Part shown: positions 10,927-52,400 of the stretch, piece after piece | Position numbering within the stretch: position 1 is the stretch's first letter | Layout: the number at the start of each line of letters is the position of its first letter | Assembly: GCF_030294985.1 (NCBI RefSeq) | Contig: NZ_AP024718.1 | Coordinates: 1,627,001 to 1,691,000, forward strand | From: Methylomarinovum tepidoasis | GTDB lineage: Bacteria; Pseudomonadota; Gammaproteobacteria; Methylococcales; Methylothermaceae | Reading direction: 5' to 3' | Length of the DNA stretch: 64,000 bases | Translations under genes and position numbers: made by a program | Notes under the pieces: generated by a model | Database searches by the model: none | The model's input: only the letters and a program-made list of their open reading frames with translations | Told to the model about the DNA's origin: nothing

Positions 10927-10958
10927 CGATGGCGGATCGGCTGAAAAGCGGTGAAGGC

Positions 10959-11056
10959 GCCGGGGAGCCGGGTCCGGGGGCGTACTCGGCCCGGACGGCC
11001 GAGTACCGAGCGCCCAGGGATGGATTCACCGCGTCCCCCGGACCCGGCTCCCCGGC
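10959..11056. repeat. Dispersed cloverleaf-like palindromic repeat, copy A
   Basis: A perfect 22-bp inverted repeat (10959-10980 with 11035-11056) encloses a 9-bp hairpin (TACTCGGCC 10983-10991, loop CGGAC, GGCCGAGTA 10997-11005) and a further arm. About 60 bases of the core match copy B at 33097-33190, including GGACGGCCG and AGGGA-GG-TT-AC-GCGT. It fills the fliQ-fliR gap and would form a strong cruciform or RNA structure inside the polycistronic message. It resembles REP-type elements, but family membership is not established. Confidence 0.85.
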
Positions 11057-11095
11057 ACCCTGGCGGTGGGTCCGGAGGCAATCCCGGAGGTGGTG

Positions 11096-33059: not shown

Positions 33060-33096
33060 GGGTTGAATCCATCGTGCAGTTGTGAGTTCAGGCGTC

Positions 33097-33190
33097 GCAG
33101 GGGACGGGTGGAAGGGCGTACCCGGCCTGGACGGCCGGGTTTCGAGCCCCTAGGGAAGGGTTTACGGCGTTCCTGGAACCCGTTCCCTGC
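33097..33190. repeat. Dispersed cloverleaf-like palindromic repeat, copy B
   Basis: Outer arms 33097-33109 and 33178-33190 pair over 13 bp with one mismatch, enclosing an 8-bp hairpin (ACCCGGCC 33120-33127, loop TGGAC, GGCCGGGT 33133-33140). Sequence and architecture match copy A (10959-11056) with compensating changes in the stems. It occupies the sufU-Rieske gap. Confidence 0.82.
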
Positions 33191-33215
33191 GGCGATCCTT
33201 AAAGCTGGTGTTTGT

Positions 33216-46028: not shown

Positions 46029-46722
46029 GAGCGACCTGACAGGTGCAAGTCCTGTCCGGCCAAGGCTGGCCACCAGCCGGAACCGAGTGTTGCGTGGTCG
46101 AGGAGTGATCCTGGCTGCGAAGCGTACACAGGGAGCCTGTAGGCTGCGTGATGGAGCCTCGAAAGTACGGAATGCGGAGCCGACGTTGTTGAACGGACGG
46201 AAGGCAACAGGGGTGGTGCTGTACAGGCCTGGCATCATTCCTCCGCCGGGGTCGAAGAGCGGGGCATGCAGGCAAGGGTCGCCCGGGAACCTGGGAGGGC
46301 TCGATCACTCCCTGCGAGGAAGAGCGGTGCGGGCGCCGTGTGAGAAAAGGCCCAGGTCCATCAGATTGGTGTCCGGCTGATGGAAGCGAACAGGACACAA
46401 CTCAGGGTACCGGCGCGCGAAGGCAACCGAGCGCGCTGGGAAGGTGATCGAGCAATCGGAGCCTGCTGATAGTACCTGGGAAGTCGGGGAACCTGCCCCA
46501 AGGGACCCGACGGAGGGAAGCGGCAGGTCGGACGATGGGGCTTTCGGAGGGACAGATGGCCGGGACATCGAGCCAGGAGAACATCTCAACACGACAACGG
46601 AAGCTAGCGGAACTGGCCCGGATCGAACCGAAGCTGGTGTTGACCACGGTTGCCCACTGCCCAAGCCGGACCCGCCCGATCGGCATCCCCACCTTGCCAC
46701 CTTGGAAGACAAGGTACTGCTG
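46029..46722 (+). mobile_element. Group II intron, 5' fragment
   Basis: Starting near GAGCGACCTGACAGGTGCAA the sequence is typical group II intron domain I (the CAAGTCCTGTCCGGC stem, the GAAGCGTACACAGGGAGCC region, GCCGTGTGAGAAAAG) and runs about 500 nt into the start of its maturase gene. The 5' end reads GAGCG where GUGYG is usual. The rest of the maturase and domains V-VI are gone; an IS256 element begins at about 46723. This explains the otherwise gene-free stretch 45964-46555. Confidence 0.82.
46556..46722 (+). pseudogene. Group II intron maturase/reverse transcriptase remnant
   Basis: ATG 46556 with GGAGGGA upstream opens MAGTSSQENISTRQRKLAEL, the LtrA-type N-terminus. After VLTTVAHC about 70 residues are missing; the sequence resumes at PKPD and RPIGIPTL (reverse transcriptase domain 2) with two small frame changes before EDKVL, then meets the IS end. 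It is non-functional. Confidence 0.78.
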
Positions 46723-49438: not shown

Positions 49439-52400
49439 ACTGGGGCCGTCTGGCCATCCACCGCCACGTTCTCACCTGGATGCTCAACGCCCTGATCGTG
49501 CTGGCGGGCTGGGTGGCTTTCGAGCGCATCGGTGTGGACCGCTATCCCCGGATCGATTTCCCCATGATCTCGGTGACCACGGTGCTGGCCGGAGCCAATC
49601 CGGACATCATCGACGCCAGCATCACCAACGTCGTCGAGAGCGCCGTCAACAGCGTGCCAGGCATCGAGCACGTCCAGTCCGACTCCTTTCCCGGCGCTTC
49701 GGTGGTGCGCATCACCTTCGAGCTGGAAAAGGACATCGATGTGGCCTTCAACGAGGTCCAGGCCAAGGTCAACCAGGTTCTGAGCGAGCTGCCGGACAAC
49801 GCCGAGACCCCGGTGGTAGCCAAGGTGGAATTCGGAGCGGTGCCGATCCTGTGGCTGACCCTGAGCGGTGACCGTACCCTGCAACAGCTCAACCAGTACG
49901 CCCGCCTCCACATCAAGAAGCGCCTGGAGAATGTCGCCGGGGTCGGCGAGGTGCGCATTGGCGGCCGCCGTGAGCGCACCATCCGGGTCCATCTCGACCC
50001 CGCCCGCCTGAGCGCCTACGGTCTCACCGTCGGCGACGTGGTCGCCGCCTTTTCCCGGGAACACTTCCAGCTGCCGGGGGGCTTTTTGGTGGGACGCGAC
50101 CGGGAGCTGCTGATCAAGCTGGACCTGGAATTCCACAAGCCGGCGGAGATCGAGGAACTGATCGTCGCCGCGCGCAACGGCGCGCCGATCCGTATTCGCG
50201 ATATTGCCGCCGTGGAGGATGGCACCGAGGACGCCCGGCGGTTGGCGCGTTTCGGCAAATGTCAGGAAACGGCGGGACGGGAATCTGCGCGCCAGCCCGG
50301 AAATGCTTTCCTGCATTTAGGGCTGGTGCGGCCATCCCTGGCCGCCGGCGCTGCAGATTCCCGTCCCGCCGCCGTGCCTTCGGACTGCCACAGCGTCCCC
50401 GCCGTCGGCCTCGGCATCGTCAAGGTCACCGGTGCCAACGCGGTGGCGGTGATCCAGCAGGTCAAACAGCGCCTCGAGGAGGAAATCCTGCCCCAGCTGC
50501 CGCCGGGGCTGCGGATCGACATCGCCATCGACGATTCGGCCCTGATCCTGGCGCTGGTGGGGGCCCTGGAGGAACATCTGACCCTGGGCACCTTGCTGAC
50601 CGCCCTGGTGGTGTGGCTGTTTCTCAAGAACCTGCGCGCCACCCTGATCATCGCCCTGGCGATCCCGGTGTCGCTGCTGGGGGCGGTGGCGGTGATGTAT
50701 TTCGCCGGCTTCACCTTCAACACCATGACCCTGCTGGGGCTGCTGCTGCTGATCGGCATCGTGGTGGACGACGCCATCGTGGTGCTGGAGAACATCTATC
50801 GCCACCGCGAGGAAGATCCGGGCACCGGTTCTTTTGAGGCGGCCGAAGCCGGCGCCCGCCAGGTGGTGTTCGCGGTGGTGGCGGCGAGCCTGACCCTGGT
50901 GTCCATCTTCGCTTCGGTGCTGTTCATGGGCGGGGTGATCGGCAGTTTCTTCCGTTCTTTCTCGGTGGTGGTGAGCCTGGGGGTGCTGGTGTCCCTGTTC
51001 GTGTCCATCAGCCTCACGCCCATGCTGTGCGCTCGTTATCTGGAGGTGGCGCGCCGCCACGGTCCCCTCTACCTGTGGCTGGAGCGGGGTTTCAGGGCCC
51101 TGGAATCCGGTTACCGGCGGCTGCTGGGATGGACGTTGCGTCACCGGGTGTGGGTGGTGGCGATGGCGGTGATGGCGGTGATGCCGAGCGGCTTCTTCCT
51201 GGGCCAGCTGGGCAAGGGCTTTCTGCCGGAAGAGGACGAAGGCCGTTTTCTCATCAGCTTCAAGGCGCCCCTGGGTTCGAGCCTGCGCTACACCGAAGGG
51301 CGCCTGCGGGAAATGGAAAAGGTGCTGGCCCGCCACCGGGAGATCGCCTCCTGGTTCGCGGTGATCGGCGGCGGGGCCAGCGGCCAAGCCAGCCGCGGCG
51401 ACGTCTTCGTGCGTCTGGTGCCGCGCGAAAAGCGGGACATCCACATGTACCGCCTCATCGACCGCCTGCGCGGCGAGCTGGCGGGAATTCCCGGTCTCCA
51501 GGCCTTCCCCGCGCCCATCCCGCCCCTGGGCGGCCAGTGCGGCGAGTGCTCCAGTTCGTGCTCCAGGGCCCGGACGTGGCGGGCGTGGCCGAACAGAGCC
51601 GGCGCCTGCTACAGGCGTTGCGCCGCCACCCGGAACTGGGGACCATCGACCTCGACCTGCAGCTGGAGCTTCCCCAGCTGCGCCTGCGGGTGGACCGCAC
51701 CCGCGCCCGCCAGCTGGGCCTGCCGGCACGGGAGGTGACCCTGGCGGTCAACGTCCTGGCCGGGGGCCTGGACGTGGCCAAGTTCAACGACGAGCCCGGC
51801 GACGGCGAGCGCTACGACGTCCGTCTCAAGGCCGCCGAGGGAAGCTTCCGCGCCCCGGCCGACCTGCGCCAGATCTTCCTGCGGGCCAGCGGCGGCCGTC
51901 TGGTGCGCCTCGACACCGTGGCCCGCTGGGAGGAAAGGGTGGGGCCGGCGGTGGTGACCCGCTTCGACCTGCGCTATTCCGGCAATTTCTTCGCCACCCC
52001 CAAGGTTTCCGAGGGAGAGGCCGCCGCCATCGTCAAGCAAGTCGCCGCAAGTTCGTTGCCGCGCGGCTACCGGGTGAAGATGATCGGCCGTGCCGAGGAG
52101 TTCGAGAAGACCGCCGGCTACATGCTGTTCGCCCTGGTGGCGGCGGTGGTGCTGGTGTACATGGTGCTGGCCAGCCAGTTCAACGCCTTCCTCCAGCCCC
52201 TGGTCATCATGGCCGCCCAGCCCCTGGCGGTGGTGGGCGGGCTGGCGGGCCTGTGGCTTACCGGCCGCAGCCTCAACATGTTCTCCATGATGGGGCTGGT
52301 GCTGCTCATGGGGCTGGTGGCCAAGAACTCGATCCTGCTGGTGGACCTGACCAATCAGCTGTGCCTCCAGGGCCGCGGCATCGACGAAGCCCTGCGCGAG

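Follow-up and report, generated by a model that had tools for sequence, protein, structure and literature searches.

The two palindromes that lie between fliQ and fliR and between sufU and the Rieske gene of Methylomarinovum tepidoasis (copies A and B) are best explained as dispersed, non-coding, palindromic miniature insertion elements of the YPAL/RU-2 kind, the covariation of which was generated by template switching; we put the probability of this reading at roughly 0.7. A comparison of sister species shows copies that are present in one and absent from the other, cores that have turned round between their arms, and changes in one arm that are matched by complementary changes in the other. 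A preliminary description, made from the letters of the window alone (the whole stretch of 64,000 nucleotides analyzed here), had reported these two palindromes and had taken their covariation as a sign of selection on structure.

A family of palindromes

The palindromes had been placed at positions 10959–11056 and 33097–33190, and the covariance model R1 matches there with 98 and 100 bits, respectively (Table 1). They had been credited with a common core and a hairpin with paired substitutions, and the changes quoted are present in both copies: GTACTCGGCC-CGGAC-GGCCGAGTAC in copy A versus TACCCGGCC-TGGAC-GGCCGGGTT in copy B. Each is a long palindrome with two small hairpins in the middle, such that a three-way junction is possible on either strand, and each folds better than all 200 of its dinucleotide shuffles (z-scores for the two strands of −7.3 and −8.1 for copy A and of −5.5 and −3.7 for copy B). 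The Pfam assignments agree with the genes named on either side. Copy A parts fliQ (PF01313) from fliR (PF01311) inside the flagellar operon. Copy B sits between the sufU gene (NifU_N) and a Rieske gene; these two genes are on the minus strand, and the core of copy B is accordingly antisense. By its FliR, the best named relatives of which are 64–72% identical, the host is a Methylothermaceae methanotroph.

Table 1. Elements and their parts in the window (positions are those of the window)
Feature	Position	Strand	Description
Copy A, whole palindromic element	10955..11060	+	Between fliQ and fliR; R1 match, 98 bits
Copy A, left arm, 22 nt	10959..10980	+	Complementary to right arm; exact inverted 22-mer, self-match in DNA search
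Copy A, conserved core	10981..11034	+	Hairpin TACTCGGCC-CGGAC-GGCCGAGTA, linker CGAGC, second hairpin CCCAGGGATGG
Copy A, right arm, 22 nt	11035..11056	+	Exact inverted 22-mer of left arm
Copy B, whole palindromic element	33091..33196	+	Between NifU_N (sufU) gene and Rieske gene; R1 match, 100 bits
Distant relative	50269..50372	-	20-bp arms around hairpins GCGGCCAGGGATGGCCGC and AAATGCAGGAAAGCATTT; R1 match, 35.5 bits, E 7.7e-06

When the genome was searched with copy A as a DNA query, 27 matches were obtained, three of which are copy A itself and two self-matches of its arms. An alignment of 25 copies together with copy B (A1, 26 rows) formed the basis of R1. In the named structure of A1, 91.3% of cells are paired, against 34–50% when the structure is slid, and 236 cells are double-changed, against 74 in shuffles; position 61/79, for example, holds C-G in 13 rows, G-C in 3 and no standard pair in 10 of the 26. 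Searching genome-wide with a covariance model had been proposed in the preliminary description, and both of its copies are real. They belong to a set of at least 47 copies, rather than only two, in the 2.44-Mb genome of this Methylothermaceae methanotroph (G000; E ≤ 0.1, 150 of 2432 candidates scored), and the window contains a third, more distant relative. In the complete genome of a sister species (G003), R1 finds 36 copies.

The unit measures about 106 nt in total and is made up of a conserved core of about 60 nt, with the two small hairpins and the three-way junction, and of long complementary arms that are specific to each copy. The best similarity between the arms of unrelated copies within a genome is mostly 16–24 of 32, and there are thus no common terminal repeats. 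Inverted doublets are found among the copies at 81700/81827 and 416498/416654.

The distant relative, a related yet distinct palindrome with two hairpins (GGCCAGGGATGGCC; AATGCAGGAAAGCATT), has a DNA fold z-score of −11.6 and 11 partial matches to itself and to the genome. Since its core is matched elsewhere in the genome, it likely represents a second subfamily. Five low-scoring copies (L197–L199, L201, and L202, at G000 positions 377149, 1427472, 1011285, 1135602, and 989720) have similar arms, GAGGCAGGTGGTC..TTCGAA, unlike those of the others, and are perhaps a younger or different subfamily. The window also contains a group II intron at 46046–46261 of the plus strand (RF02005, 149.7 bits).

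Beyond these two species, R1 was run on a sample of the class Gammaproteobacteria, where it matches 44 of 274 genomes, and on a sample of the phylum, where it matches 27 of 398, all 27 labeled as the same class. Among 41 genomes searched as relatives, 12 match; G002, for example, has 75 copies, G005 has 74, and G006 has 46, whereas G001 has none. Carriage by phages, plasmids, or viral contigs was considered, and no match was obtained in plasmids and phages, each searched with one consensus core, or in viral contigs scanned with one exact pattern.

Kinship to YPAL/RU-2 and to Ysr224

The core has the same order of motifs as YPAL/RU-2, AAGCGT..GGAT..CGAGCC..ATGGATG..TTTACGGCGT. The Yersinia pestis RU-2/YPAL repeat, as printed in the available part of PMC2759123, scores 34.9 on the core profile of A1, compared with 12.5 ± 1.7 for 60 shuffles (maximum 17.1) and 11.8 for its own reverse complement, and alignment A2 has 27 invariant columns of 106. 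The two also have in common palindromic arms, an intergenic location, presence or absence between close species, and short target duplications. They differ in that RU-2 is about 168 bp long with published outer arms, whereas the methanotroph element is a GC-rich paired unit of about 106 nt with copy-specific arms unlike those of RU-2, and in the core inversion seen here, in a methanotroph host. We file the element as a relative of YPAL, within a superfamily, and not as YPAL itself. YPAL copy numbers, in the available text of PMC2847712, are 37–144 in most Yersinia genomes, 2 in Yersinia ruckeri, and 3 in Escherichia coli, and a limited full-text literature search found no report of a YPAL-type family outside the enterobacteria. 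ERIC, Correia, RUP, and other bacterial miniature inverted-repeat elements (MITEs) are likewise small, non-autonomous, palindromic, and intergenic, but they have shared terminal repeats, as far as the accessible table of PMC2229807 shows, whereas the arms of the methanotroph element differ from copy to copy.

In an Rfam search, copy A weakly matched Ysr224 (RF02770) on its minus strand, with 21 bits; this family is filed as an sRNA gene and has a gathering score of 70 bits, which copy A does not reach. TwoAYGGAY, which we had presumed to be a possible relative, gave no Rfam match. RF02770 matches copies of the family in 27 of the 274 Gammaproteobacteria genomes at E ≤ 0.001, in several cases at the same places as R1 on the opposite strand (e.g. 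G096:C8 and G085:C3), and the gathering threshold of 70 bits was reached in 0 of the 274. When RU-2 is reverse-complemented, it is identical to the printed Ysr224 consensus at 19/20 and 79/80 positions. Ysr224 is, according to the available part of PMC9029176, among the most common annotated “sRNAs”, and several expressed copies have been reported in Y. ruckeri (PMC12112432); these and the two YPAL copies of that species (PMC2847712, available text) are annotations of one and the same repeat.

Empty sites and probable mobility

Around the gap between fliQ and fliR, the element is present in 4 of 10 congeneric genomes (G000, G003, G002, and, as a variant recognized by eye, G006), with differing arms, and in the other 6 the two genes nearly abut without it. 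Five G000 copies (L028, L048, L055, L189, and L199) have an element-free site in G003, which in a comparison of two species without an outgroup denotes either insertion or precise deletion. Duplications are seen as RCCACT at L048 (6 bp), TCAGT at L055 (5 bp), and ATG at L189 (3 bp); L199 is ambiguous and none was seen at L028. At these three of the five empty sites, the lengths of 3–6 bp fall within the range of 3–26 bp published for YPAL, which the available text of PMC2229807 describes as recently mobile, with insertion at or near dyad symmetry. The empty site of L048 is a GCCACT..AGTGGC hairpin stem that was duplicated by the insert, and the other empty sites are not clear in this respect. 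The sites of L180 versus L218, L192/L216, L193/L214, L201/L207, and L043/L215, being deletion remnants or unclear, were not counted, and several further candidate stretches, unaligned or at about 69% identity, give no empty-site information for their copies. Derivation of the arms from the target site was rejected, as the empty sites of L048 and L055 hold neither arm.

A further set of filled and empty forms comes from G107, a fragmented metagenome-assembled genome (MAG) in which inversions between repeats could be assembly errors. It has 43 matches to an outer repeat, and 23 of the 30 loci examined carry a YPAL-like unit at the same site, with the core 17 times one way and 6 times the other; 7 loci show the empty form only, and 2 of the 23 filled loci also show the empty form nearby. 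The existence of both forms indicates that the arms travel together with the core. At six of the loci listed (L277, L280, L289, L291, L292, and L299), a further palindrome, recognized by eye, interrupts a hairpin of the core at or next to its loop. The G107 loci L270–L299 belong to a larger repeat with nested palindromes of its own, the outer ends of which appear swapped between copies, and nested palindromic insertions within hairpin loops are seen in this genome.

In the mechanism we favor, the whole unit of arms and core would insert for the most part shortly after stop codons, occasionally at or within hairpins, and would be spread by putative machinery supplied in trans. The analysis identified neither a transposase nor any other mover, and no candidate enzyme was found near the copies. 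The REP-associated tyrosine transposase for which the preliminary description had suggested looking was likewise not found: the single Y1_Tnp match in the genome (G000:C2:6491-6850, L065) is on the second contig, which is 20 kb long, in a frame of 140 aa, and the chromosome has none. A bolder proposal, which we consider unlikely, is that a class-wide family of nested palindromes enters stem-loops as a folded hairpin, at terminator-like sites, other palindromic repeats, and, as in G107, even loops of its own kind, and that the core is a DNA-structure signal for a putative mover that tolerates or drives inversion.

Core inversion and paired arm changes

The flanks of the copies in G003 are about 94–95% identical to those in G000, and orthologues of 25 of the 47 G000 copies were found among the 30 G003 copies fetched. 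In 8 of these 25, copy A included, the core is inverted between the arms. Flipped cores are identical at 53–60 of 58–60 positions when inverted, compared with 32–42 as they lie; for copy A, the figures are 59/60 and 41/60, and both of its arms are retained (22/23 and 21/23) even though the core has turned round. In the orthologue of copy B (L052/L179), orientation and arms are unchanged. Six of the 8 flipped pairs have arms that clearly correspond, and the arms of the remaining two (L045/L163 and L187/L166) are unlike each other (12–13 of 23), which might reflect separate second insertions there.

Differences in the arms were counted in 23 of the 25 pairs, two with arms that could not be brought into register being dropped. 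There are 86 on the left and 98 on the right at 506 positions per side, and at 65 positions both sides have changed, compared with 16.7 expected if the two sides were independent; 53 of the 65 are complementary in both species. The arms have diverged by 14% in copies with an unflipped core and by 26% in those with a flipped one, and the cores by 4.7 and 5.0%, respectively, whereas four-fold degenerate sites in the flanks differ by 10.3% (3653 sites). The arms thus change faster than these presumably neutral sites and the core about half as fast, so something constrains the core. Replacement of the arms by gene conversion from other copies is not favored, as the arms of flipped copies find their best match mostly in their own orthologue. 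The orientation of the core shows no replichore bias (15, 14, 11, and 7 copies by sign of local skew), and G002 and G005 proved too distant for alignment as a second species pair.

According to the available text of PMC8604942, arms are homogenized and spacers inverted when replication switches template between inverted repeats, and PMC8794818, in the part available, proposes that perfect stems and compensatory changes of several bases arise by template switching, which leaves inverted loops as its footprint. The finding of arm homogenization and spacer inversion together in one element favors such a process, which would have acted in the host bacterium during replication of the palindrome, one arm being copied from the other or the spacer being copied in inverse. 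Since paired changes and core inversions are both products of template switching, the covariation needs no selection on RNA. The cases treated in the accessible text of these two sources have mostly short stems and short loops of a few bp, whereas here cores of about 60 nt flip in many dispersed copies. Two further observations run counter to template switching as a complete account: on the core strand G-U mismatches outnumber A-C, an imbalance not expected from a DNA process that treats both strands alike, and the core is constrained to about half the four-fold rate.

Alternative explanations

The preliminary description suggested that the cloverleaf, once transcribed, could determine how stable the message is or attenuate the gene downstream, in which case the covariation would reflect selection on RNA. 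Strong folds on both strands are consistent with this, as are the constraint on the core below the four-fold rate, the location of 33 of the 39 placed G000 copies between co-directional genes, and the suggestion, in the available text of PMC2229807, that YPAL elements might affect the stability of upstream transcripts. However, the element has no preferred orientation. Between co-directional genes, 16 G000 copies are sense and 17 antisense, with 5 copies between convergent genes, 1 between divergent genes, and 8 unresolved; the corresponding figures for G003 are 6, 12, 7, 0, and 5. The gene caller puts 8/47 G000 and 5/30 G003 copies “inside” a frame, and these were excluded from the count; copy B is so labeled and yet intergenic by Pfam, so such labels are probably due to shadow frames.

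On the strand transcribed with the neighboring genes, the arms have 21 G-U and 22 A-C mismatches in 29 G000 copies and 11 and 19, respectively, in 18 G003 copies, and this lack of a G-U excess argues against the tolerance of wobble pairs expected of an RNA. On the core strand, G-U and A-C number 33 and 26 in G000 (40 of 47 copies, seven odd ones being left out) and 35 and 14 in G003, an excess that may reflect the G-rich left arm. Together with the cores flipped in 8 of 25 orthologues, TTTT at just 2 of 43 downstream ends, and the 6 of 10 congeners that do without the element between fliQ and fliR, these counts make an RNA regulator a rather improbable explanation. The structure and the covariation reported in the preliminary description stand, and the selection suggested there is unsupported as it stands, template switching yielding both the paired changes and the flips. 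An effect on neighboring mRNA is possible; if fliR or the Rieske gene were influenced at all, this would be incidental to the presence of a hairpin in the message and independent of the orientation of the core.

Active inversion of the core by an enzyme, such as a recombinase or structure-specific nuclease working as in phase-variable or attC-like systems, would account for the finding that roughly one in three orthologous copies is flipped at a four-fold divergence of 10%, for the conservation of the core sequence across the class, and for the independent flips in G107. We regard it as improbable, given that no candidate enzyme was found near the copies, that the arms, which such an enzyme would recognize, differ between copies, and that homogenization of the arms is explained by copying alone.

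REP/BIME elements moved by a RAYT transposase are similarly palindromic, intergenic, and often arranged as inverted doublets, but a REP is a palindrome of 20–40 bp with a GTAG or CGTC tag (size from the available text of PMC3733652), whereas the element described here spans about 106 nt and has a three-way junction, and the single Y1_Tnp, an open frame of 140 aa on a 20-kb contig, adds to making this very improbable. Intrinsic terminators, to be thought of on account of GC-rich hairpins close behind stop codons, can be set aside almost entirely in view of the scarcity of TTTT (2/43 downstream ends) and the position of copy A inside the flagellar operon.

Implications

The usual evidence for a functional RNA is compensatory change, and here strong covariation across a family goes along with a core that is flipped in a third of orthologues. 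The occurrence of both in one family means that long perfect stems need to be checked against template switching before they are called RNA. Ysr224, derived from Y. pestis, is a member of this family of repeats and may be over-interpreted as an sRNA; if elements of this kind do enter hairpins as hairpins, what the Rfam entry describes would be mobile DNA instead of a gene for an sRNA. For each pair of genomes, the element also supplies dozens of natural, dated inversions from which template switching can be measured.
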